Shown here: one piece after another, positions 3,072 to 30,324 of the stretch
Numbering within the stretch: the stretch's first letter is position 1
Layout: the number at the start of each line of letters is the position of its first letter
Source of the DNA: a virus
IMG/VR virus record: IMGVR_UViG_3300045107_000070
Coordinates: 1 to 38,717 of that record
Reading direction: 5' to 3' (one strand)
Length of the DNA: 38,717 nucleotides
The notes under the pieces: generated by a model
The model's input: only the letters and a program-made list of their open reading frames with translations
Database searches by the model: none
Told to the model about the DNA's origin: nothing
Position numbers and translations under genes: made by a program

Positions 3072-3104
3072 AGTCTTCAGTGCTAAGGGGTGGCGCGGTC
3101 GGGA

Positions 3105-3779
3105 TCAGCGCGGCCGGAACATCAAGACAGGGGTCGCCCATTCGACCTCGGCGTCCTCGAAATCGGTCGCGCCGACCGTAACGAGGTTGAACCGGCCCGG
3201 CGCGTACCCGGGCAGCATCTGGCGGATCACCGTGACCGAGCCGGTGATCTTCGTCACGACGAGCTTGTTCAGATGGCGCCCGGGATCGCCAAGCTCGGTC
3301 GGCGGCTCGATGAAGGCGAACCACCCGTCCCAGACCTGCCAGGGCGACATAATGGTCCGGTACTGAACCGCAACCGCTCCATCAGGCAGCCCGGGTACGG
3401 CCGGGACGTGTCCGCGGGTGTGGTCGAAGTCGATCGCGACCTCGCCCTGTCCGTCGACCGTACCGACGATCGGGACGTCCCGGACCCCGTTGATCGCGAT
3501 TGGGGCGTCGCCGGTCGAGGCCTTGCCCATCTTGATCCCGCCGTGCCGCATCACGTCGGCGAGCGGGACAGCCAGGATCATCGCGATCTGGGCGGCGTGG
3601 GCCGCAGTCATGACCCGGCGCCCGTGGAGCAGGTGATGCGCCGACGACGCATCGACGCCCAGCAGCTTGGCCAGGCCCCGTTGGGTGATCCGCCGCTCGG
3701 CCATCCGGGCGGTGAACCATTCCGTGTCGATCTCTTGGACTTTCGAGCGCATCCCGGGCGGGATACTACAAGGCCCCAT
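3105..3779 (-). CDS. CI-like phage repressor (XRE helix-turn-helix plus S24-like C-domain)
   Basis: 224 residues from ATG 3777-3779. An internal ATG ten codons in (MRSKVQEID) is also possible. Neither start has a clear Shine-Dalgarno site, so a leaderless or near-leaderless message, as for lambda cI, is possible. Residues 31-53 (ITQRGLAKLLGVDASSAHHLLHG) form an XRE-type helix-turn-helix. The C-terminal half (about 100-224) resembles a LexA/CI S24 domain, but the usual Asp-Ser-Met-x-Pro signature aligns with Thr-Ile-Met-Ser-Pro (142-146), so the nucleophilic Ser is absent or shifted. It diverges from a Cro-like gene across operators at 3775-3850 and is the likely binder of the dispersed GTGTTG-N9-CAACAC sites. 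Role confident; binding specificity inferred. Confidence 0.88.
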   Translation of the reverse strand: MGPCSIPPGMRSKVQEIDTEWFTARMAERRITQRGLAKLLGVDASSAHHLLHGRRVMTAAHAAQIAMILAVPLADVMRHGGIKMGKASTGDAPIAINGVRDVPIVGTVDGQGEVAIDFDHTRGHVPAVPGLPDGAVAVQYRTIMSPWQVWDGWFAFIEPPTELGDPGRHLNKLVVTKITGSVTVIRQMLPGYAPGRFNLVTVGATDFEDAEVEWATPVLMFRPR

Positions 3780-4189: not shown

Positions 4190-4423
4190 GTGATCACGGA
4201 ATCGAGAGCAGCGAGGGTCTACCCGCCGCTTGAGCGCGCGCCCCGGCTCGTCCCGACGGGCTCGGCGCTGGCCCGCGGCGCGATGGCGTTCATCCATCCC
4301 TGCGAGATCTGCGGCACCGAGGACGCGCCGTTCGGCTTCGGCGTGTCTCGGACTAGCACCGGCCATTGGCGGTGCGCCCAGCACCGGCCGCGCCCATCGG
4401 GTTCCCCGACCGACCTCTTGTGA
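4190..4423 (+). CDS. Small zinc-finger-like protein
   Basis: 77 residues from GTG 4190-4192, downstream of an AAGGGCGGGGG purine-rich ribosome site. The C-terminal half contains CEICG followed about 20 residues later by WRCAQH, a Cys2-Cys/His pattern that could bind one zinc ion. The N-terminus is basic and probably flexible. First gene of the rightward replication operon, 110 nt ahead of the helicase. Likely a DNA- or protein-binding accessory factor; no specific function can be assigned. The 110 nt up to the helicase start hold nothing else I can identify. Confidence 0.65.
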   Translation: MITESRAARVYPPLERAPRLVPTGSALARGAMAFIHPCEICGTEDAPFGFGVSRTSTGHWRCAQHRPRPSGSPTDLL

Positions 4424-4532
4424 CTTCGGCCGCGCGCCTCGGGGCGCGCCGGCGTTCCCCCCACGCATAACCGTTCGAGATGGGCGTGCCGGTGCAGAAC
4501 TTCAAATCCCGAAATCGGCTGGAGCGGCGCCC

Positions 4533-5951
4533 GTGACGTTCGCGCTTCGGCCATACCAGTCGGACATGGTCGACCGGACCCGCGCCGCGCTGCGGACGAG
4601 TCGGACCGTCCTGATCCAGCTTCCGACCGGTGGGGGCAAGACCGCGATCTCGGGCTTTATGTCCGGCTCGGCGGCCGGCAAGGGCCATAGGGTCGCGTTC
4701 CTGTGCCACCGGCGCGAGCTGGTCCGGCAGACCTGCGAGACGTACGACCGGGTCGGCATCCCGTACGGGATCATAGCGGCGGGGTTCACGGGCGACCGGC
4801 GCCAGGCGGTCCAGATCTGCTCGATCCCGACCCTGGCCAAGCGGCTCGACCTCGCCGGCGACTTCAACGTGATGATCTGGGACGAGGCGCACCACATCGC
4901 GGCCGGGACCTGGGCCGAGATCATGGCGGCGTTCCCGAACGCCAAGCACATCGGCCTGACCGCGACGCCCGAGCGGCTCGACGGGACCGGGCTGGGCCGC
5001 TGGTTCGAGACGCTCGTCTCGGGGCCGTCGGTGTCCTGGCTGATCGAGCAGGGCTTCCTCGCCCCGTATCGGCTCTACGCCCCGCCGTCCGATCTCGACC
5101 TGACCGGGGTCAAGCGGCGCGGCGGCGACTTCGCGAAAGACGAGGTCTCGGCCCGCATCGCCAAGTCCTCGATCACGGGCGACGCGGTCGACCACTACAC
5201 CCGGCTCGCGGCGGGCCGGCGCGCGATCGCGTTCTGCGCCTCGATCAAGCATTCCGTCTCGGTCGCCGAGAAGTTCCAGGCCGCGGGCTATACCGCGCTG
5301 CACATCGACGGGACGACCGAGGCGGGCGAGCGCGACGCCGCGCTGCGCGCCTTCGCGGCCGGCCGCATCCAGGTCCTGACGTCGGTCGATCTGGTCAGCG
5401 AAGGGCTCGACATCCCGGCGATCGAGGTCGCGATCCTGCTGCGGCCGACGCAATCGCTCGGGCTCTACCTGCAGCAGGTCGGGCGCTCGCTTCGTCCGGC
5501 GCCGGGCAAGTCCGAGGCGCTGGTCCTCGATCACGCCGGCAATGCGCTTCGGCACGGTCTGCCCGACGACGAGCGCGAATGGTCGCTGGCCGGCCGGGTC
5601 AAGCGGAAGGCCGGCGCCGGCGGCGGCGAAACAGCGCCGCCGGCGCGCCAGTGCCCCGCGTGCTTCGCGGTCCACGCCCCGGCCGAGCGGTGCCCGCGCT
5701 GCGGCCACGAATATCCGGTGCTGGGCCGGACGATCGAGCAGCTCGAGGGCGAGCTCCTCGAGATCGACCGCGCCACGCTGGCGGCCCGCGCCGCGTCGCA
5801 GCAGCGGATCGAACAGGGCAAGGCGCAGACGCTCGACGACCTCGTCCGGCTCGCCCGGCTCCGCGGGTACCGCAACGCGCACGGGTGGGCGCAGGCCGTG
5901 TTCAAGGCCCGTCAGCGCAAAGACGCGGTGAAGGCCGCGCAGGGCCGATGA
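4533..5951 (+). CDS. SF2 DEAD/DEAH-box helicase with C-terminal zinc ribbon
   Basis: 472 residues from GTG 4533-4535, chosen because GGAGCG lies 7 nt upstream and homology-like sequence (FALRPYQSDMVDRTRAALR) starts immediately. A longer frame from 4230 has shadow composition. Motifs in order: Q-like RPYQ, Walker A PTGGGKT (31-37), DEAH (117-120), TAT (motif III, about 142), and motif VI QQVGRSLRP near 315. Two RecA-like domains are complete. A C4 zinc ribbon (CPAC and CPRC pairs, about 373-395) precedes a helical tail. ATP-dependent DNA unwinding in phage replication or recombination is expected; position with the primase supports replication. Confidence 0.9.
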   Translation: MTFALRPYQSDMVDRTRAALRTSRTVLIQLPTGGGKTAISGFMSGSAAGKGHRVAFLCHRRELVRQTCETYDRVGIPYGIIAAGFTGDRRQAVQICSIPTLAKRLDLAGDFNVMIWDEAHHIAAGTWAEIMAAFPNAKHIGLTATPERLDGTGLGRWFETLVSGPSVSWLIEQGFLAPYRLYAPPSDLDLTGVKRRGGDFAKDEVSARIAKSSITGDAVDHYTRLAAGRRAIAFCASIKHSVSVAEKFQAAGYTALHIDGTTEAGERDAALRAFAAGRIQVLTSVDLVSEGLDIPAIEVAILLRPTQSLGLYLQQVGRSLRPAPGKSEALVLDHAGNALRHGLPDDEREWSLAGRVKRKAGAGGGETAPPARQCPACFAVHAPAERCPRCGHEYPVLGRTIEQLEGELLEIDRATLAARAASQQRIEQGKAQTLDDLVRLARLRGYRNAHGWAQAVFKARQRKDAVKAAQGR

Positions 5952-7597: not shown

Positions 7598-7995
7598 GCG
7601 GCGCCGGCTCGCCGCTCGTCGCCCGCGTCCTGCTCCGGACCGGCGCGCTCCCTGGCGTCTGCCTTTTTCGACAGAATACGGGCATGGCCTGGATGGGCGA
7701 CGCGAAGCTGGTCGGCCCGGAGCGGGTCGTGATCGAGAACGCCCATCCGGTCCGGTTCGGGCTCTGCACCGGGTCGCCCGACATCGTAGGCTGGCGCTCG
7801 ATCGAGATCACGCCCGACATGGTGGGACGGCGCGTCGCGGTCTTCGTCGGACTCGAGGCGAAGTCGGGGACGGGCCGGGCGACAAAGGATCAGCGGCGCT
7901 TCCTCGAGATCCTGAACGCCGCCGGCGGAATCGCGTCGGTGGTCCGCGCGCCCGACGATGCAGTCGCGCTGCTCGGGAGCGGCCCCACGAAATGA
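7594..7995 (+). CDS. VRR-NUC domain nuclease
   Basis: 133 residues from ATG 7594-7596. The core has GSPDIVGW (Asp near residue 58), then a strand and FVGLEAKSGTGR (Glu-x-Lys near 88-90), then TKDQRRFLEILNAAGG, matching the compact VRR-NUC branch of PD-(D/E)XK enzymes. Family members are found alone in phages beside SNF2/SF2 helicases and primases and are proposed to act on branched or flap DNA, including Holliday junctions. It overlaps the primase-helicase start by 4 nt. The conserved FRQNTG turn near residue 26 is also typical. Confident on family, uncertain on substrate. Confidence 0.85.
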   Translation: MSGAGSPLVARVLLRTGALPGVCLFRQNTGMAWMGDAKLVGPERVVIENAHPVRFGLCTGSPDIVGWRSIEITPDMVGRRVAVFVGLEAKSGTGRATKDQRRFLEILNAAGGIASVVRAPDDAVALLGSGPTK

Positions 7996-10757
7996 CGGAC
8001 CGCGACCCGCTCCCGCAACACGAGATCATCGAGCAGTTCCGGGAGGCGATGCGGTCCTGCGGCATCGAACTCGCGGCCGGGGTCTCGATCGTCCCCGATG
8101 CCGTGATGCACCGGGTCGACCTCGCCGGGGCTCGCAAGGGGTCGAAGACGGGCTGGTACCGCCTTTTCACCGACGGCATCCCGGCCGGCGCGTTCGGCGA
8201 CTGGCGCTCCGGGGTCAACGAGACCTGGTGCGCCAAGAAACCGCGCGAGATGAGCCAGGCCGAGCGCGACGAGCTCAGGGCGCGGATGGAGCAGGTCCGG
8301 CGCGAGCGCGAGGCCGAGATCGAGGCGGACCACGCCAAGGCGCGCGACGTGGCGGCCAAGGTCTACGGCGCGGCGCGGAACCCCGACCCGGACCACCCCT
8401 ATCTGGTCCGCAAGGGCGTCGTGGCCGGCTCGGCGCTGCGGCAGACCGCGGACGGCAAGCTCGTCGTCCCGATGTACCGGGCCGACCGCGTCCTGGCCGG
8501 GGTCCAGACGATCGACGCGGAGGGCGTGAAGCGGTTCACCAAGGGCTGCGAGAAAAAGGGGTCGTACTGCTCGATCGGCCGGCTGACCGATACCGTCGTG
8601 ATCGTCGAGGGCTACGCGACCGGCGCCTCGGTCCACATGGCGACCGCGCTGTGCTGCGTCATCGCGTTCGACGCGGGGAACCTGCTGCCGGTCGCCCGGG
8701 CGATCCGAGCGAAATACCCGGACCGGCGGATCATCATCGCGGGCGACAACGACGCGTGGACCCTCGAGCCGGTGGCGAACCCCGGCGCGACCCGGGCGCG
8801 CGAGGCCGCGGCCGAGATCGACTGCGACGTGGTCATCCCCGATTTCGGCCCGCTCGGCCCGGACGAGCGGCCGACCGACTTCAACGACCTGCACGCCAGG
8901 GCCGGCCTGGAACAGGTCGCGGCCCAGATCGACGCGGCGCGGCATCACAAGGTCGTCTCGATCGACGCGGCGCGCCAGGCGCGCGGCGAGCCGGCCGCGC
9001 CGCCGGTGGCGCCGAGCGACCCCGACGTCCCGATCGACGCCTACCAGGGCGGCGACGGCCCCGTCTCGACCGGTTGGCAACCCGAACCGGGGATCGACCC
9101 GGTCCCGCTCGGATATGACCGCGGCGTCTACTACTACCATTCCGCGGCGCAGCGGCAGATCGTCGGGCTCCCGGCCGGGGCGCACGGCAAGCTCGGGCTG
9201 ATGCAGCTTGCCCCGCTAGCCTATTGGGAGGACCGGTTCTCGAACCGCAAGGGCGCGGATTGGGACGCCTGCGCCGACTCGATGATGCGGGCCTGCGAGG
9301 CGCGCGGCGTGTTCGACCCGGACCGGATCATCGGGCGCGGCGTCCACATCGATGCGGGCCGGGTCGTGCTGCACCTGGGCGACAAGATCCTGGTCGACGG
9401 CAAGCTCAACGGGGAAGCGGCGCGCCCGTCGATGATCGTCCCGGGCTCGGAGAACATCTATGAGCGGCTCCGGCGGATCAGGCTGCATCGCGCCCCGGCC
9501 CTGACCGACGATGAGGCGGCCGAGCTGATCGAGCTTCTCGACCTGCTGCCCTGGACGTCGGCCGACATGGCGCCGCTCGCGGCGGGCTGGATCGTCACGG
9601 CCCCGATCTGCGGCGCGCTGCGCTGGCGCCCGCACATCTGGGTCACGGGCGAGGGCGGGTCGGGCAAGTCCTGGCTGATCGGCAACGTCGTCACGCCGAT
9701 CCTCGGCCCGATGTGCGTCCAGTACCAGGGCGCCACGACCGAGGCCGGCATCAGGTTCGAGCTTGGCAGCGACGCTCTCCCGGTCGTGTTCGACGAGGCC
9801 GAGTCCCAGAACGAGAAGGCGCAGGAACGGGTTCAGGCCATCCTCGATCTGGCGCGGCAGGCCTCGTCCGAATATGGCGCCCCGATCGTCAAGGGCGGCG
9901 GCAACGGGAAGTCGGTCCGGTACAGGATCCGGTCGAGCTTCATCTTCTCCTCGATCAACCTCGGCATGACCCAGGCGGCGGACCAAAGCCGCACCATCGT
10001 CCTGTCGCTCGCGTCGGTCCCGACCGATCTCGACGCGGAGCAGAAGATCGAGCGAGCCGAGAAATTCGCCTACCTCGAGGCGCAGGCGGCGCGGATCGTC
10101 ACGCCCGAGTTCGGGTCGCGGCTCTTCGCGCGCACGCTCAAGATGGTCGAGACGATCCGGCACAACGCCCGCGTCCTAGCGCAGGCCGCGTCCGAGCTGC
10201 TCGGCAACCGGCGAACCGCCGATACGATCTCGACCCCGCTCGCCGGCTGGTGGGCGCTCCAATCGCGCGAGCAACTGACGATCGAGCGGGCCCGCGAGGT
10301 CCTGGCCCGGCAGACCTGGATCATGGGCGCGGCCGAGCGGAACAAGACCGAGTCCGACCACGACAAGGCGGTGCGCTTCCTGCTCGAACGGCTGGTCTTC
10401 CTCAGCCCGACCAAGCGCGAGGCGATCGCCGACCTGCTGGCGCGCGCCGCGTCGCCCGACGAGGTCCGGCCCGACGAGTCCGGCGACGCGGAAGCCGCGA
10501 AGGCCCTGCTCCAGATCGGGATCAAGGTCGTGCCCTGGCGCAAGGGCCTACCGGCCGAGAACCGGCCCGCCATGGTCTATCTGGCCCGGTCGCACTCGCA
10601 ACTCGAGGCGCTGTTCCGCGGCACGCCTTGGTCGAAGAGTTGGGCCTCGACCCTGCTGCAGCACCCGAGCGCGGGGCGCGGCTCCGTCGTCAAGTTCGGC
10701 CGCTCGTCGCACCGGGCGATCATCTTCGCGCTCGGCGACCTGATCGCGCTCGACTGA
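7992..10757 (+). CDS. Toprim primase-helicase fusion (phage replication protein)
   Basis: 921 residues, ATG overlapping the upstream stop. Residues about 1-190 form a primase-associated N-region with the motif NPDPDHPYLVRKGV. The Toprim core follows, with catalytic Glu206 in VIVEGYATG and the Asp252-Asn-Asp254 triad in AGDNDA. A linker of about 80 residues leads to a DUF927-like/SF3-type P-loop domain with GEGGSGKSW (Lys559) and FDEAESQ as Walker B. A C-terminal region of about 200 residues is charged and probably binds DNA or partners. Such fusions synthesise primers and unwind the fork. No zinc-finger cysteine cluster is evident at the N-terminus. A candidate origin lies about 500 bp downstream. 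Confidence 0.88.
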   Translation: MTDRDPLPQHEIIEQFREAMRSCGIELAAGVSIVPDAVMHRVDLAGARKGSKTGWYRLFTDGIPAGAFGDWRSGVNETWCAKKPREMSQAERDELRARMEQVRREREAEIEADHAKARDVAAKVYGAARNPDPDHPYLVRKGVVAGSALRQTADGKLVVPMYRADRVLAGVQTIDAEGVKRFTKGCEKKGSYCSIGRLTDTVVIVEGYATGASVHMATALCCVIAFDAGNLLPVARAIRAKYPDRRIIIAGDNDAWTLEPVANPGATRAREAAAEIDCDVVIPDFGPLGPDERPTDFNDLHARAGLEQVAAQIDAARHHKVVSIDAARQARGEPAAPPVAPSDPDVPIDAYQGGDGPVSTGWQPEPGIDPVPLGYDRGVYYYHSAAQRQIVGLPAGAHGKLGLMQLAPLAYWEDRFSNRKGADWDACADSMMRACEARGVFDPDRIIGRGVHIDAGRVVLHLGDKILVDGKLNGEAARPSMIVPGSENIYERLRRIRLHRAPALTDDEAAELIELLDLLPWTSADMAPLAAGWIVTAPICGALRWRPHIWVTGEGGSGKSWLIGNVVTPILGPMCVQYQGATTEAGIRFELGSDALPVVFDEAESQNEKAQERVQAILDLARQASSEYGAPIVKGGGNGKSVRYRIRSSFIFSSINLGMTQAADQSRTIVLSLASVPTDLDAEQKIERAEKFAYLEAQAARIVTPEFGSRLFARTLKMVETIRHNARVLAQAASELLGNRRTADTISTPLAGWWALQSREQLTIERAREVLARQTWIMGAAERNKTESDHDKAVRFLLERLVFLSPTKREAIADLLARAASPDEVRPDESGDAEAAKALLQIGIKVVPWRKGLPAENRPAMVYLARSHSQLEALFRGTPWSKSWASTLLQHPSAGRGSVVKFGRSSHRAIIFALGDLIALD

Positions 10758-10766
10758 CCGGCGCTT

Positions 10767-10781
10767 GTTCCTGATGCGTTC
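10767..10781 (+). promoter_or_regulatory. LexA-like SOS box
   Basis: GTTC (10767-10770), seven bases, GTTC (10778-10781) exactly fits the alphaproteobacterial LexA direct-repeat consensus GTTC-N7-GTTC. It lies in the 42-bp gap between the primase-helicase stop and the next start (10800). This suggests host LexA control of the small genes and perhaps of origin-proximal transcription. About one chance match is expected in a window this size, so location is the main support. Confidence 0.5.
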
Positions 10782-10799
10782 CCGTGCCACGATCCGGGC

Positions 10800-11015
10800 A
10801 TGACCAAGCCGCTCGGCCCGACGCTCGACGCGCTCCCGTTCCGGGTCGAGGAATGGGACGCCGGCGGCCACCACGTCGTCGACCTCGTCGCGGCGTGCTC
10901 GAACATGCTCGTCGCCGAGGCCGCGTTCGACGCCGTGGCGTTGTTGCGGCCGACCGCGCCGCTCCGGCTCCGGAACCGCGCCCGGGTGATCCGCAGGATC
11001 AACTGCGCCGACTGA
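10800..11015 (+). CDS. Small hypothetical protein, possibly SOS-regulated
   Basis: 71 residues from ATG 10800-10802, 19 nt after a LexA-like box. The sequence reads as a soluble mixed alpha/beta protein: an acidic strand region (FRVEEWDAGGHHVVDLVAA) and a basic C-terminus (RLRNRARVIRRINCAD). No recognisable domain. The ribosome site is weak. It is the first of two small genes between the primase and the iteron-like region, so it could be an origin or replication accessory factor; that is positional inference only. Confidence 0.55.
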   Translation: MTKPLGPTLDALPFRVEEWDAGGHHVVDLVAACSNMLVAEAAFDAVALLRPTAPLRLRNRARVIRRINCAD

Positions 11016-11058
11016 ACCGCCGGCGGATCGGGTCGGCCCGGCCGGTGTTCCTGCCGGG

Positions 11059-11298
11059 ATGCACACCGTCAAGGCCCTCGCCGTGGCCGATCGCCACGTC
11101 GCCGAATGGCGCGCCAAGGTCGAGCAGAGAAGTGCCGCGATCGCGGCTTTGCCGGACGGGCCCGAGCGCGACGAGGCGGTCCTGCTGCTCGCCGCGACGT
11201 TCGACCTGCTCGACGCTCTGACCCGTCACCGCGCCGAGATTGCGGCCGGCCTGCCCGCCGCGGCGCGTTACGGGCGGGGCGGTTACAAATCGGCCTGA
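11059..11298 (+). CDS. Small helical hypothetical protein next to the putative origin
   Basis: 79 residues from ATG 11059-11061. Almost entirely helical (VADRHVAEWRAKVEQRSAAI; LLLAATFDLLDALTRHRAEI) with heptad-like hydrophobic spacing, then a Gly/Arg-rich tail (ARYGRGGYKSA). A second reading frame over the same bases (11106-11306) lacks this pattern. The last codons overlap the first GGTTACA heptamer of the origin-like region. Not recognised. A dimerising, origin-adjacent DNA-binding role is conceivable but unproven. Confidence 0.55.
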   Translation: MHTVKALAVADRHVAEWRAKVEQRSAAIAALPDGPERDEAVLLLAATFDLLDALTRHRAEIAAGLPAAARYGRGGYKSA

Positions 11299-11398
11299 CC
11301 CTGTAACCGATTTTGTAACCGATCAACCCATTGATTTCGTTACCAGATCGGGCAGTCGGTTACAGGTTACAGCGGTTACACGAAAACCCGGGTCGTAT

Positions 11399-11460
11399 GC
11401 CCGCGCGACGCGCGCGACGCCCGCGTGCGCGCCCGCGCGACGCGCCTGTGCGCGTACGCG
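11399..11460. repeat. Alternating purine-pyrimidine GC block with a 15-bp direct repeat
   Basis: The 15-mer GCCCGCGCGACGCGC occurs at 11399-11413 and again at 11431-11445, period 32 bp. The surrounding sequence is almost pure CG/GTG alternation (for example TGTGCGCGTACGCG near 11448-11460), prone to Z-DNA or cruciform formation. It separates the left and right halves of the heptamer array. Confidence 0.6.
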
Positions 11461-11490
11461 AGACGCGATTTTTGTGTAACCTGTAACCGA

Positions 11491-11519
11491 CCCTATTATT
11501 ATTATTATTTATCAATAGG
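11491..11519. other. AT-rich tract, candidate DNA unwinding element
   Basis: A run of TAT triplets (11494-11510) followed by TTATCAATAGG is an extreme AT island in a genome of about 70 percent GC. It is bracketed by an inverted CCTATT (11492-11497) and AATAGG (11514-11519). It lies between TGTAACC copies on the left and GGTTACA copies on the right, where an initiator bound to both arms could melt DNA. Confidence 0.55.
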
Positions 11520-11565
11520 TTGGTTGGTTACAAAGTCGGTTACAGGCGGTTACATTTAGAACCGT

Positions 11566-11603
11566 TTGTAACCGGGGCCGATCTGTTGTGATTTTGCCAA
11601 CGC
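11566..11603 (+). promoter_or_regulatory. Promoter with operator ahead of the DUF6456-like gene
   Basis: The operator CTGTTG-N9-CAACGC (11583-11603) has inner sequence TTTTGC, matching the other sites. A candidate -35 TTGTAA (11566-11571), 17 bp and -10 TGATTT (11589-11594) would put the operator over the -10, the same geometry as at 4107-4143. The start codon of the next gene is 36 bp beyond the operator. Confidence 0.6.
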
Positions 11604-11638
11604 GCAGCTACCATCGGCACGGCTCAGCGAGGGGGACC

Positions 11639-12259
11639 ATGGGGAAGTCGAAGGCGAGGCGAGCCGCGGCGCGTCAGGCAGCGCGTCGCGCTACGGGTGG
11701 GGCAGGACGTGCCGTACCGGCGACGTCGTCCGACCTGGGCTCCCCATTCCTGGCGCAGCACGTCCCGACCGCGATCGTCGACCGCTCCGTCCTGGCCGGC
11801 GGCACGGTCGGGCAGCAGGGCCGGATCGTCCTCGAAACCGTCGTGCTCGACGCCTACCTACGGCGCGGCATGATCCGGCGGCGCGAGCACGAGGCCGGGC
11901 AATCCGTCTCGGCGCTCTGGCGGCGCTTCGTCCTCCCGCCAGCCGTCACGGCGAGCTACGGGCAGGCGAGGGGCGGCGGCGGCGGTCTCGCGCCCGGCGT
12001 CGACGCTTCCCGGCTGTTCTTCGAGACGATGCATCGGGCCGGGCTCGCCCAGCCCGCCGCCGATCTCGCGCCCCTCGAGATCCGCGGGGCGAGCAAGACG
12101 TTCGTCGAACCCGCTATGGCGCGCTACGTCCTCACCGCGGTCGGACACGTCGTCGTCGCGGTCTGCGGGTACGAGGAATGGGCCGGAGGGACGCGCCGGA
12201 TCGAGCACCTTCGCGCCGGTCTCGGCCGGCTCGCCGATCACTGGCGCATCCCGTCGTGA
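11639..12259 (+). CDS. DUF6456-like protein, candidate late-gene regulator
   Basis: 206 residues from ATG 11639-11641, with GAGGGGG about 5 nt upstream. The first 30 residues are strongly basic (GKSKARRAAARQAARRATGG). The remainder has the pattern I associate with DUF6456-type alphaproteobacterial/phage proteins: LDAYLRRGMIRRREHEAGQS, then a VTASYG segment, a Gly-rich loop, and a helical C-terminus ending GLGRLADHWRI. Its gene has its own operator-bearing promoter and is followed within 130 bp by a promoter-like site and strong hairpin, the lambda Q-pR'-tR' layout. A role as an antiterminator or activator of late genes is inferred from position. The family assignment is from memory and moderate. 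Confidence 0.65.
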   Translation: MGKSKARRAAARQAARRATGGAGRAVPATSSDLGSPFLAQHVPTAIVDRSVLAGGTVGQQGRIVLETVVLDAYLRRGMIRRREHEAGQSVSALWRRFVLPPAVTASYGQARGGGGGLAPGVDASRLFFETMHRAGLAQPAADLAPLEIRGASKTFVEPAMARYVLTAVGHVVVAVCGYEEWAGGTRRIEHLRAGLGRLADHWRIPS

Positions 12260-13577: not shown

Positions 13578-14270
13578 ATGCAGCGCGACCTAGAAATCGA
13601 GTATCGGCCCGTCGATGCTCTGGCGCCGTACGACCAGAACGCCCGCACCCATAGCCCGGAGCAGATCGAGCAGATCGCGGCGAGCATCCGGGAATTCGGA
13701 TGGACCAACCCGATCCTGGTCGATGAAGAGGGCACCATCATCGCGGGCCACGGCCGGCTTGCCGCCGCGCAGGCGCTCGGCATGGCCGAGGTCCCGGTCA
13801 TCGTGCTCGACGACCTGTCCGACGCGCAGCGCCGGGCGCTGGTCCTGGCGGACAACAAGCTCGCGCTCAATGCCGGGTGGGACGACGCGATCCTGGCGGC
13901 CGAGGTCAAGCGCCTGCTGGACGACGAGTTCGACGTCGGCGTGGTCGGCTTCTCGCAGACCGAGATCGACGAGATGCTCGCCAACCTGGACGAGGGCGGC
14001 GGCGGCGGATCGGGCGGCGGGGGCGGGGCCGGCGGCGCCGGCAGCTTGGCAGAGCGGTTCGGGGTCCCGCCGTTCTCGGTGCTGGTCGCCCGCGAGGGTT
14101 GGTGGCAGGACCGCAAGCGCGCATGGCTAGCGCTCGGCATCCAGTCCGAGCTAGGGCGGGGCCAGGCGCTCGACGACGCCGCGCCAGGCGGGTCGGCCCT
14201 GCCGGCCGCGGACTACGGCAAGACCAAGGCTCGAGGCGACGGGCGCGGAAGGGCGATAGGCCGTGGGTAG
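13578..14270 (+). CDS. ParB-like nuclease domain protein
   Basis: 230 residues from ATG 13578-13580. The ParB/sulfiredoxin-type N-domain is clear: ALAPYDQNARTHSPEQIEQI, then NPILVDEEGTIIAGHGRLAA (GHGR at about 57) and a segment like VPVIVLDDLSDAQRRALVLADNK. After a Gly-rich linker it carries VPPFSVLVAREGWWQDRK, a segment that usually joins ParB to a methyltransferase in one polypeptide. Here the frame ends at 14270, overlapping the methyltransferase start by 8 nt in another frame. It probably acts with that enzyme in DNA modification or recognition. The pair may be a natural split or a frameshift product. Confidence 0.85.
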   Translation: MQRDLEIEYRPVDALAPYDQNARTHSPEQIEQIAASIREFGWTNPILVDEEGTIIAGHGRLAAAQALGMAEVPVIVLDDLSDAQRRALVLADNKLALNAGWDDAILAAEVKRLLDDEFDVGVVGFSQTEIDEMLANLDEGGGGGSGGGGGAGGAGSLAERFGVPPFSVLVAREGWWQDRKRAWLALGIQSELGRGQALDDAAPGGSALPAADYGKTKARGDGRGRAIGRG

Positions 14271-15093
14271 CGCGACGGGAAACCTGACGTTCGTCCAGGG
14301 CGACCGGGCGGTCGAGGATCTCGACCCGGTCAGCCAGACGATCCTGGCGGTCGGGTCCGGCACGTCGATCTTCGACCCGGTGCTGTGCGAGCTCGCCTAT
14401 CGGTGGTTCTGCCCGCCGGGCGGACTGGTCCTCGATCCATTCGCCGGCGGCTCGGTCCGCGGCATCGTCGCCTCGAAGCTCGGTAGGCAGTACATCGGGA
14501 TCGACCTTCGCTCCGAGCAGGTCGAGGCGAACCGGAGGCAGGCGGACCAGATCTGCGGCGACCCCATGCCGGTCTGGCACGCGGGGGACTCGAGGGCGAT
14601 CGGCGCGATCGCGCGCGGGGCCGACGCGGACTTCGTCTTTTCGTGCCCACCCTATGCGGATCTCGAGGTCTACAGCGACGATCCGCGGGATCTCTCGACC
14701 ATGGCGTACGCCGACTTCCGGACCGCCTATGCCGAGATCATCGCGGCGACCTGCGCGCTGCTGAAACCGAACCGCTTCGCGTGCTTCGTGGTGGGCGACG
14801 CCAGGGACCGGCGGGGGTTCTACTACGGCTTCCCGTGGCACACGGTCGAGGCGTTCGAGGCGGCGGGGCTCCGGCTTTATAACGAGGCCGTGTTGGTCAC
14901 GGCGGTCGGGTCTCTGTCGATCCGGGTCGGGAAGCAGTTCGCGGCGAGCCGGAAGCTCGGCAAGACCCACCAGAACGTCTTCGTGTTCTGCAAGGGCGAC
15001 CCGGTCAAGGCGACGAAGGCGATCGGCACGGTCGAGTTCGCCGAGCCGGAGGACGAGCCGGCCGACGCGTCGGAGTTCGGGGAGCAGCTGTGA
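14263..15093 (+). CDS. ParB-associated DNA methyltransferase
   Basis: 276 residues from GTG 14263-14265. SAM-binding motif LDPFAGGSVRG at about 57-67, a following acidic strand (YIGIDLRSEQ), catalytic FSCPPYADLE at about 126-135, and the long conserved blocks FACFVVGDARDRRGF and ILVTAVGSLSIRVGKQFAA-like sequence that typify the phage DNA-modification methylases often fused to ParB domains. The SCPPY variant allows adenine N6 or cytosine N4 as target. It shares a GTGA overlap with the PLP-fold gene downstream. Orphan modification to evade restriction is the likely role. Confidence 0.9.
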   Translation: MGSATGNLTFVQGDRAVEDLDPVSQTILAVGSGTSIFDPVLCELAYRWFCPPGGLVLDPFAGGSVRGIVASKLGRQYIGIDLRSEQVEANRRQADQICGDPMPVWHAGDSRAIGAIARGADADFVFSCPPYADLEVYSDDPRDLSTMAYADFRTAYAEIIAATCALLKPNRFACFVVGDARDRRGFYYGFPWHTVEAFEAAGLRLYNEAVLVTAVGSLSIRVGKQFAASRKLGKTHQNVFVFCKGDPVKATKAIGTVEFAEPEDEPADASEFGEQL

Positions 15094-15791
15094 CGCCGAT
15101 CGTGACGGAGCACGACGGGATCAAGGTGGTCCGCGACGATCTGTTCGCCGGCGGGACCAAGGCGCGATTCCTGCCGATCCTGTTCCGTGACGCGGACGAG
15201 ATCGTCTATGCGTCGCCGGCCCAGGGCGGGGCGCAGACTGCGTTGGCCCACGTCGCGCGGCAGCTTGGGAAGCGGGCGACGATCTTCGTCGCGAAGCGGG
15301 CCCGGCCACATCCCCGCGCGCTCGAGGCGAAGCGAGTCGGGGCGAAGGTGCTGCAGGTCCATCCCGGCTACCTGTCGGTCGTCCAGGCGCGCGCCAGGGC
15401 CTATTGCGCCGCGACCGGCGCGACCCTGGCGCCGTTCGGGGTCGACATGCCGGAGGCGATCGCGACGATCGCGGCAGCGGCGCGGCAGACCGGCGCCGAT
15501 CCGGACGAGGTCTGGTGCGCCGCGGGTTCGGGTGTGCTGGCGCGGTCGCTCGCAGCGGCGTTCCCACGCGCGCGGCGCCACGTCGTCCAGGTCGGGCGCG
15601 AGCTTCGGCCGACCGACGTCGCCGGCGCCACGATCCATGTCGCGCCGGTGTCGTTCGATCAGGTCTTGAAGGTCAGTCCGCCGTTCCCGTCCGACCCGCA
15701 CTATGACGCGAAGGCCTGGGCGATCTGCCGGGAGCGGCGAGGGGCCGGGACGGTCCTGTTCTGGAACGTCGCCGGCCCGGCGCAGCCTTAG
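15090..15791 (+). CDS. PLP-dependent enzyme-like protein (ACC deaminase / tryptophan-synthase-beta fold)
   Basis: 233 residues from GTG 15090-15092. Landmarks of fold-type II PLP enzymes: LFAGGTKARFL with Lys24 in the Schiff-base position, SPAQGGAQTALAHVARQLGK resembling the substrate loop, and CAAGSGVLARSL (about 143-154) as the phosphate-binding Gly loop. At about 233 residues it is much shorter than typical members (about 330), so part of the small domain may be missing or reworked. It follows the methyltransferase in the same translational unit. A role in nucleotide or DNA base chemistry is possible; none is proven. It ends tail-to-tail with the minus-strand cassette (4-nt overlap). Confidence 0.7.
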   Translation: MTPIVTEHDGIKVVRDDLFAGGTKARFLPILFRDADEIVYASPAQGGAQTALAHVARQLGKRATIFVAKRARPHPRALEAKRVGAKVLQVHPGYLSVVQARARAYCAATGATLAPFGVDMPEAIATIAAAARQTGADPDEVWCAAGSGVLARSLAAAFPRARRHVVQVGRELRPTDVAGATIHVAPVSFDQVLKVSPPFPSDPHYDAKAWAICRERRGAGTVLFWNVAGPAQP

Positions 15792-28068: not shown

Positions 28069-30324
28069 ATGGAACGCAGCGTCACCTTCCGCGACCGCCA
28101 GGAGCTTCAGTCGGCGGACCTGCAGAACGTCCAGACGTTCGGGGACGAGACCCACCAGCACATGGTGCAGGACGCAGTCACGTCCGAGCGGCAGGTCGTC
28201 GGGCTCGCCGTGACGCAGCAGAGCGCGACCGAGATCCAGGTCGCGCCGGGCCGGCTCTGGGACGGGACGACGGGCAAGGTCTACCGCAAGGATCAGGCCG
28301 AGACGATCTCGGTCTTCAGCTACCTCGCGGTGCTCGACCAGAAGTGGATCACGGTCTCGGCGGTCGGGCAGGAGCAGGACATCAACGTCCAGCCGCGCGA
28401 CTTCCTGATCGACCTCCAGACCGGGCAGACCCAGCCCGAGGCCGTGTCGATGGAAGAGGCGCGCGTCGCCGTCATCGTCCTGACCGCCGGGGTGGAGTCG
28501 GCGACGCCGCAGAAGCCGGCCGCCCCGACCGGATACACCCTGCTCGGCTACGTCCGGGTCGGCGTCTCGGGGATACTCGAGATCGACCTGTCGAGCGTCG
28601 CGCAGCTCCCGCAGCTCAACCGGGTGAACGCCGACGTCAAGTCGCTCAAGGCGTGGCGGAACCTCGCCGAGCCGCAGATCGCCACGCTGAAGAGCGACGT
28701 CGCCGGCCTCGCGCTCAAGATCAACGGGCTGACGTCGCGCGAGCGCATCATCGAGATCTCGTCCGATATCGCGCGGCTCAAGGAACTGCTGAACATCCCG
28801 GACGACTTCGCGAGCTATGGGGCAGACTACTTCCTCGACGACGACGAGTCGGACGACGCGCAGGCCGGTTACAACGCCCGGGTCGACGAGGGCGTCCGCT
28901 TCCCCTGGACCGCTCAGGGCGTCTCGCAGCTCGCGCTGTTCAACCCGCTGACCACCGCGGTCAAGAGCTTCGACGGGTTCCTGCTGCCGGCCCACACCGA
29001 TCTGGTCCGGCTCCAGACGACGACCGGCTACGCCGGCGAGCTGCCGATCAACCAGTACCAGGTCACGACCTTCAACATGAGGCAGGCCACGTTCACGCGG
29101 CAGCGGACCCGGTTCGGGCCGACCCGGACGATCTGCACGAACAGCAAGGAATGGGCGACCGGCAAGTACAACCCGATCACCGGCGTTTTTCAGAACAGCA
29201 CGGGCGACAGCTTCACCGTCGCGGAGGAAGATCGGGTCAGGGCGAACATCAACCACCAGATCGTCCGGATTACGCAGTTCTGGACCGACACTTACGAAGA
29301 GCCCTACTGGTACACCGAGGCGACGACCTCGACGATCAACGGGTCGCAGATCGCGCAGACCATCCTCAACGCGCAGAACGGGTGGCTGACCAAGATCGGG
29401 ATGTTCTTCGTCAAGAAGGGCGCGACCGGCATCGTCTATGTGAACATCTGCGAGACGATCAACGGCGTCCCCGACCTGAACTCGTGCATCGGCTCGACCC
29501 AGGTCGCGCAGTCGGCGATGACCGTGTACCCGGCCGAGACGGTGATCGCCTTCCCGAAGCCGGTCTATCTCCAGGCCGGCAAGCGGTATGCGATCGTCGT
29601 GACGACCGCCGGCGCCCACTCGGTCGCGATCGTCGCCGGCTCGAACTATACGCAGGGCACGATCTTCTACAGCCTCGACGGCGCGTACCAGCAGGGCGAC
29701 TTCACCAAGGACATGATGTTCAAGCTCTACTATGCGAGCTTTACGAACGTCCGGACCGTGGTCGATCTCTCCCCGCTGTCGCTGTCCGGCGGCATCGCCG
29801 ACATCGACGTCCGAGCCCCGACCGTCGTCCCGCCCTCGACGCAGCTGCTCTACGAGTTCCAGCGCGCCGGCGTCTGGTACCCGATCGCGGCGGCATCGGG
29901 CGCGCAGCTCCGGAACCTGCCGCCGCTGCTCCCGCTGCGGGTCACGTTCATCGGGTCGTCTGACCTGATGCCGGGGCTCGGGCTGCAGGGGTCCGAGATG
30001 AAGGTGAGCCGCGCCGCGCTGGCGCTCAAGCACTTCTCGGCGGTGCGGACCCTGGTGGCGAACACGTCCGAGGTCGTCGTCAAAACACTCCTCGAGGGCT
30101 TCGACGCGGCGCACCACACCGCGACGATCAAGCTCAAGATCGGGGCGTCCGAGATCGCGGCTTCGAGCGTCACCGACGCGGATGATCCGGACGGGGGTGT
30201 CCTCCGGACGGCGACGTTCAACCTGGGAAGCCCGACCAGCTCCTACCGGGTCGTCCTCATCGGGGCGACCGATACCGCGCTCGACCTGTTCCATTTCGCG
30301 AACCGGATCGACATCGCGCTCTGA
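28069..30324 (+). CDS. Large baseplate/tail-fibre-adaptor protein (DUF4815-like)
   Basis: 751 residues from ATG 28069-28071 (GGAGG site about 10 nt upstream); a longer reading frame begins inside gpI and is a shadow. The N-terminus (RSVTFRDRQELQSADLQNVQ; VTQQSATEIQVAPGRLWDGT; QPRDFLIDLQTGQTQPEAVS) resembles DUF4815-type phage proteins. A coiled-coil-like segment lies at about 180-250 (LAEPQIATLKSDVAGLALKI). The remainder is beta-rich, with a probable carbohydrate-binding-like domain near 400-560. Sits between gpI and the fibre, so it likely anchors or forms part of the receptor apparatus. Confidence 0.7.
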   Translation: MERSVTFRDRQELQSADLQNVQTFGDETHQHMVQDAVTSERQVVGLAVTQQSATEIQVAPGRLWDGTTGKVYRKDQAETISVFSYLAVLDQKWITVSAVGQEQDINVQPRDFLIDLQTGQTQPEAVSMEEARVAVIVLTAGVESATPQKPAAPTGYTLLGYVRVGVSGILEIDLSSVAQLPQLNRVNADVKSLKAWRNLAEPQIATLKSDVAGLALKINGLTSRERIIEISSDIARLKELLNIPDDFASYGADYFLDDDESDDAQAGYNARVDEGVRFPWTAQGVSQLALFNPLTTAVKSFDGFLLPAHTDLVRLQTTTGYAGELPINQYQVTTFNMRQATFTRQRTRFGPTRTICTNSKEWATGKYNPITGVFQNSTGDSFTVAEEDRVRANINHQIVRITQFWTDTYEEPYWYTEATTSTINGSQIAQTILNAQNGWLTKIGMFFVKKGATGIVYVNICETINGVPDLNSCIGSTQVAQSAMTVYPAETVIAFPKPVYLQAGKRYAIVVTTAGAHSVAIVAGSNYTQGTIFYSLDGAYQQGDFTKDMMFKLYYASFTNVRTVVDLSPLSLSGGIADIDVRAPTVVPPSTQLLYEFQRAGVWYPIAAASGAQLRNLPPLLPLRVTFIGSSDLMPGLGLQGSEMKVSRAALALKHFSAVRTLVANTSEVVVKTLLEGFDAAHHTATIKLKIGASEIAASSVTDADDPDGGVLRTATFNLGSPTSSYRVVLIGATDTALDLFHFANRIDIAL

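Follow-up and report, generated by a model that had tools for sequence, protein, structure and literature searches.

A two-module GGTTACA array 3' of a primase-helicase gene is the probable replication origin of a temperate-looking myovirus

What is the function of a dense array of one heptamer, GGTTACA, on the 3' side of a large phage primase-helicase gene? The array is located in a 38,717-bp virus record (IMGVR_UViG_3300045107_000070), which is referred to as the window. By gene content the source is a temperate-looking myovirus. Both terminase subunits, portal, major head protein, baseplate, tail fibre and tail sheath are encoded, together with a VRR-NUC-like nuclease, a RecE-like exonuclease, a repressor-like protein (3105-3779) and a phrog_16 helicase (4230-5951). 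A gene for a ParB-like protein (13578-14270, phrog_15396, E=4e-76) was found beside a DNA methyltransferase gene. Just past these two genes, the ORF at 15090-15791 matched phrog_7093, annotated as threonine dehydratase (E=2e-55), which is an unusual label in a phage.

An exact-match count over the window gave twelve copies of GGTTACA/TGTAACC within 11281-11573, seven on the plus strand and five on the minus strand. The copies start at 11281 (+), 11302 (-), 11314 (-), 11358 (+), 11365 (+), 11374 (+), 11475 (-), 11482 (-), 11526 (+), 11538 (+), 11548 (+) and 11567 (-), and the start-to-start steps are, in the same order, 21, 12, 44, 7, 9, 101, 7, 44, 12, 10 and 19 bp. A single further copy was present in the 38.7 kb, at 28867. 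The mean number of copies in 100 dinucleotide shuffles was 0.51 per whole window and the maximum was 2; the copy number of the array is far beyond this chance level. No other 7-mer formed a comparable two-orientation cluster in the window, the next independent ones having five copies. The array is built of one module present twice, with one outlier copy at each end. Module A (11302-11380) and module B (11475-11554) agree in order and inner step, each having two TGTAACC copies, a 37-bp gap (the 44-bp step) and three GGTTACA copies. They are separated by a G+C-rich spacer (11390-11468, 81% GC). The most AT-rich 50-mer of the window starts at 11468, has 38/50 A+T and covers the gap of module B (11489-11525). 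This gap contains TATTATTATTATTATTTATCAATAG, with an AT tract at about 11495-11519, and is a candidate unwinding element. The second most AT-rich 50-mer starts at 11302, in module A. The two AT-richest 50-mers are found at the 37-bp gaps of the two modules, and the repeat sets surround AT-rich regions as in iteron origins. The repeats are 7 bp long and bidirectional; DnaA-dependent iteron plasmid origins have direct iterons of about 17-22 bp, DnaA boxes and a RepA-type initiator. No Rfam family matched in the region 10700-11800.

The first-pass annotation had described twelve clustered copies in both orientations, and the exact count and the shuffles confirmed this. Its spacing of 7-12 bp applies within the same-strand runs, but the runs themselves are 19, 21, 44, 44 and 101 bp apart. 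The AT tract, around which it described the copies as clustered, is inside the array but off its middle, between copies 8 and 9. The array was also said to follow the primase-helicase gene directly. It is on the 3' side of that gene, but 524 bp past the stop (10757), and two small plus-strand ORFs of 71 aa (10800-11015) and 79 aa (11059-11298) intervene, the last codons of the second containing the first iteron copy.

The proposed initiator is the 921-aa primase-helicase encoded at 7992-10757 on the plus strand, which matched phrog_35358 (DNA primase, E=3e-155) and Toprim_3. A TOPRIM domain was located at residues 202-305, a Walker A motif (GEGGSGKS) at about 553-560 and a Walker B motif (VVFDE) at about 598-602. 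The TOPRIM domain is homologous to that of P4 alpha (36% over 103 aa, E=4e-14), and the motif EGYATG corresponds to EGYATA in P4. By profile, the helicase core matched DUF927 helicases (E=1e-6). No NCBIfam match, TIGR01613 included, and no Pfam match above the cut-off was obtained for the helicase core, DUF5906 falling under the cut-off at E=0.099, and D5_N and Pox_D5 were not detected in the protein. Judged by these profiles, the helicase part belongs to a different, unnamed family, outside the P4 primase family TIGR01613. In the AlphaFold model the C-terminus consists of helices followed by a beta hairpin (block pLDDT 79-90), which is compatible with a winged helix. A fold search with the AlphaFold models, which were of low to moderate confidence, gave no significant match, the best PDB entry being a winged helix at E=0.7, and a PDB sequence search with the protein gave no match.

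The array and the gene beside it are best explained if 11281-11573 is the replication origin of the phage, of the iteron kind found in P4 and PICI, with the product of 7992-10757 as its initiator acting as proposed below. A probability of about 0.87 was given to this reading. Since the layout of the array is like that of the proven P4 origin, the array is very probably the place where replication of the phage starts. We infer that the initiator binds the repeats, that melting occurs at the AT-rich gap and that replication begins at the array. The winged-helix-like C-terminal domain would bind the GGTTACA iterons, and several protomers would assemble cooperatively on one helix face to either side of the AT-rich gap. 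At these sites the ATPase domains would hexamerise, melt the TATTATT gap and load bidirectionally as helicases, and primers would be made by the TOPRIM domain. The two module copies, each a reverse pair, a 44-bp step and a forward triplet, would act as two assembly sites, as in P4 crr.

Iterons combined with an unwinding element, the architecture named in the first-pass annotation, remained the best-supported reading in view of the 3' position, the P4-like steps and the recurrence of this arrangement, both among relatives and among initiator loci sampled by protein family. The origin was also called probably new at that stage. In the literature searched, GGTTACA as a repeat word, the phage and the helicase family of the initiator are undescribed, but the kind of origin is known from P4 and SaPI/PICI. 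A search of the open literature for GGTTACA/TGTAACC as an iteron found nothing relevant. A switch in GC skew at the array had been suggested as a check; the minimum was found at 13657, 2.1 kb away, and is uninformative.

Relatives of the initiator were collected by tblastn, which gave 130 phage records, none of them reaching 60% identity. A back-translated peptide search of viral contigs gave no close relatives. Among the relatives, the layout appears to be kept and the word changed. Arrays were observed 3' of the initiator relative in Bdellovibrio phi1422 (GGTAACA, 11 copies), Pararheinheimera KLER1-1 (GCTTACA, five copies), Synechococcus MinM1 (GCTCACA, five copies) and an Atlantibacter plasmid (GGTAAYA). 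Arsenophonus linear plasmids of 8.2 and 9.6 kb with a protelomerase have the 3' array words GCATTACA and GGCTAACA; among the words of the relatives, GCTAACA and GCATTACA belong to linear plasmids of 8-10 kb. In the Arsenophonus linear plasmids the helicase homologue is the only apparent replication gene, and few other genes are present. AT tracts between iteron sets, as in the window, were seen in the relatives L738, L739 and L487. Conservation of the array in relatives was mixed. The gammaproteobacterial MAG locus L487 (38% identity) contains ten copies of GGTTACA itself and others have different words, but the nearest phage, Bordetella PBb001, has none. No convincing array was present within 1.5 kb downstream of the helicase in PBb001 and PY223, the closest relatives at about 40% identity, or in large (90-kb) Aeromonas and Pseudomonas phages. 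PBb001 and the 90-kb phages are without an array, so not every member of the initiator family has one.

The two Arsenophonus plasmids deserve separate mention. Arsenophonus nasoniae L749 (NZ_CP123558, 1-8190) and L751 (NZ_CP123517, 1-9600) each contain a protelomerase, a homologue of the helicase part of the window protein and a strong 3' array, ATTACAA in ten copies and CTAACAA in thirteen copies, respectively. From their gene content they appear to be minimal linear replicons.

A shared C-terminal domain was considered as the explanation for a shared word and was rejected, as percent identity did not differ between same-word and other-word pairs. Specificity, if located in the C-terminal domain, must therefore rest on few residues. 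The same result could be taken to favour an origin array that is bound by another protein, either from the host or from a small phage ORF, with the primase-helicase joining afterwards, as happens in iteron plasmids that have a separate Rep: the identity test linked no domain to the word, and the two small ORFs that precede the array could encode such a binder. Binding by another protein is nevertheless unlikely, since SCCmec Cch2 binds 3' iterons by its own C-terminal domain and SaPI Rep is said to do the same (PMC7581432), and since the 8-10 kb linear plasmids consist of a helicase homologue, an array and few other genes.

Public viral contigs and genomes were scanned with a two-orientation GGTTACA pattern. 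The viral contigs gave at least 120 matches, compared to 25 for the reversed heptamer used as control (complete viral scan). Among the matches listed, dense arrays were found in loci of 28 to 71% GC and often directly 3' of large primase-helicases. The first five neighbouring primase-helicases either had no BLAST similarity to that of the window or belonged to another phrog family. The 76 neighbour proteins among the matches listed included 28 DUF5906, 17 VapE-like and 15 DUF927 proteins. The neighbour in L146 matched the solved chain 7pds, named 'Similar to D. nodosus vapE', and that in L026 matched 7ola, 'DNA primase', both of which we take to be staphylococcal island initiator helicases. 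Strict dereplication left 68 GGTTACA arrays among the matches listed, 33 of them 3' and five of them 5' of a primase-helicase; for 28 of them the fetched DNA contained no primase-helicase, some of these being cut by contig ends. In an added set of Pseudomonadota genomes, GGTTACA modules were found in 1 of 348 and GGTAACA modules in 4 of 349.

Some other GGTTACA loci were also noted. In the bacterial contig L537, 23 GGTTACA copies, 21 of them in one orientation, occupy 235 bp (3087-3322), 125 bp 3' of a 432-aa membrane-protein-like ORF and with no primase-helicase in the fetched 8 kb; this is possibly a different kind of array. GGTTACA occurs 115 times in L032 (1-12385) and 38 times in L073 (1-10271), the densest part being on one strand with spacings mostly in multiples of 3; these are probably coding repeats that have nothing to do with origins. 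Module patterns were also observed in the archaeal-labelled contigs L480, L495 and L449 (Vulcanisaeta, Methanosarcina, Candidatus Nitrosotenuis), and the Methanosarcina bog_70 genome gave four module matches on three contigs.

The loci above were found by means of GGTTACA itself, and initiator loci were therefore collected by protein family instead. This sample comprised 175 D5-type loci (D5, VapE or DUF927) from four phyla, some of them overlapping where two families matched one gene, and 173 had enough downstream DNA. Significant two-orientation arrays, with differing words, were present on the 3' side in 65 of the 173 loci. After removal of redundancy, arrays of at least five copies were found in 19 of 71 three-prime flanks vs 3 of 71 five-prime flanks. 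The idea of GGTTACA as a universal origin word was rejected, given that the first collection was selected by that word and that the words vary in the family-based sample. ACA/TGT was present in 18 of 49 conserved blocks vs an expectation of 6.0 under letter shuffling, where 14 was the maximum, and a motif fitted to the array words, TGTYMMC, reached a total score of 153 vs at most 123 in 20 column-permuted sets. These values suggest a weak bias of the array words toward an ACA ending. Four Bacteroidota VapE-domain loci from three genomes (L680, L682, L684 and L702) each had one in-frame TGA within the VapE match, possibly by frame decay or recoding.

A sharp 9-bp peak in same-strand steps was common to GGTTACA arrays and to those built on other words. 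Opposite-strand steps in the 68 dereplicated GGTTACA arrays peaked near 14, 23 and 43 bp and were periodic at about 10 bp (Rayleigh p of 2e-4 and 3e-6, for the best of the scanned periods under strict dereplication). The period was about 10.6 bp in arrays of other words, with an additional cluster at 100-105 bp, comparable to the 101-bp step of the window. The fetch patterns bounded same-strand distances to 7-21 bp and divergent distances to 12-42 bp and left convergent pairs unconstrained; such bounds could not create peaks inside the bounded ranges. The steps of 7-12, 44 and 101 bp in the window agree with this general geometry.

We give roughly even odds to a wider generalization, namely that one origin grammar serves many unrelated primase-helicases (D5, VapE, DUF927 and the unnamed family of the window) in phages, satellites and linear plasmids. 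It would consist of a word of 7-8 bp with a free first part and an end tending to ACA, steps of 9 bp on the same strand and of about 14, 23, 43 and 101 bp across strands, and an AT-rich gap on the 3' side of the gene for the initiator. In this scheme the word would be an exchangeable specificity allele, GGTTACA being one allele found beside unrelated helicases, and the geometry would be conserved because the assembled hexamers are conserved. This regularity of a fixed geometry with a variable word tending to ACA is the more interesting part compared to the single origin. Annotated origins are rare in phages. If the grammar is true, origins and initiator specificity could be read from sequence in phages, satellites and linear plasmids, and the repeat word could be used to predict whether co-resident elements are compatible. 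The grammar also provides a direct test of one protein scaffold reading many words.

The same geometry bears on the possibility of an operator array, on which a phage transcription regulator would bind GGTTACA and control the genes downstream of 11588 or a promoter-like site at the AT tract. A promoter-like match on the minus strand does overlap the AT tract, the phage encodes the repressor-like protein at 3105-3779, and initiators often autoregulate too. Twelve copies over 290 bp with two 37-bp gaps are, however, P4-like and not operator-like in geometry, and the arrays occur 3' of primase-helicase genes across unrelated phages, which makes an operator very improbable. A centromere-like parS site for the ParB-like protein encoded 2 kb downstream of the array has little to be said for it, as that gene is beside a DNA methyltransferase gene, the scanned ORFs of the window included no ParA, and similar arrays elsewhere track primase-helicases. 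Equally little credence is given to integrase arm-type sites, with bidirectional short repeats around an attP core: 6 of the 76 neighbours among the matches listed were tyrosine integrases encoded by the large gene nearest to a GGTTACA array, but a search of the scanned window ORFs yielded no integrase, and adjacency to int is expected for origins as well because P4 crr lies between int and alpha.

As a replication origin, the array can be compared with several known systems. The primase-polymerase of phage NrS-1 starts at TTTGGTTA, which is present at one site per strand in the middle of the genome and is the proposed origin (PMC8718748, PMC7102993). This is likewise a phage primase-helicase, and its 8-nt site contains GGTTA; the overlap with GGTTACA may be chance and is a lead only, and NrS-1 differs in having just two sites, which act as primer-start template for an AEP primase. 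SCCmec Cch2 resembles the window in that an initiator helicase gene is followed by short 3' repeats, but has three AAGTG repeats and a separate polymerase-primase partner (PMC7581432). A close likeness is to P4 ori/crr, with bidirectional short repeats, an AT-rich gap and an initiator with a homologous TOPRIM domain. The annotated type I repeats of P4 (NC_001609), GGTGAACA, have same-strand steps of 9-11 and 18 bp and opposite-strand steps of 14, 22 and 43 bp, compared to 7-12 and 44 bp in the window. P4 crr consists of two 120-bp modules adjoining gene alpha, and the window likewise has two modules. The repeat word is different, and P4 has ori and crr separated by about 4.7 kb whereas the window has one site; unlike P4 alpha, the helicase and C-terminus of the window protein fall outside TIGR01613, D5_N and Pox_D5. 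Compared to PICI/SaPI with Pri-Rep, the window belongs to a phage that encodes structural proteins of its own and is not a satellite, and its initiator helicase is of another family. The PICI origin organisation was reported to be common to no other known bacterial replicon (PMC6092414), a statement that is to be qualified because ordinary phages and plasmids show the same organisation.
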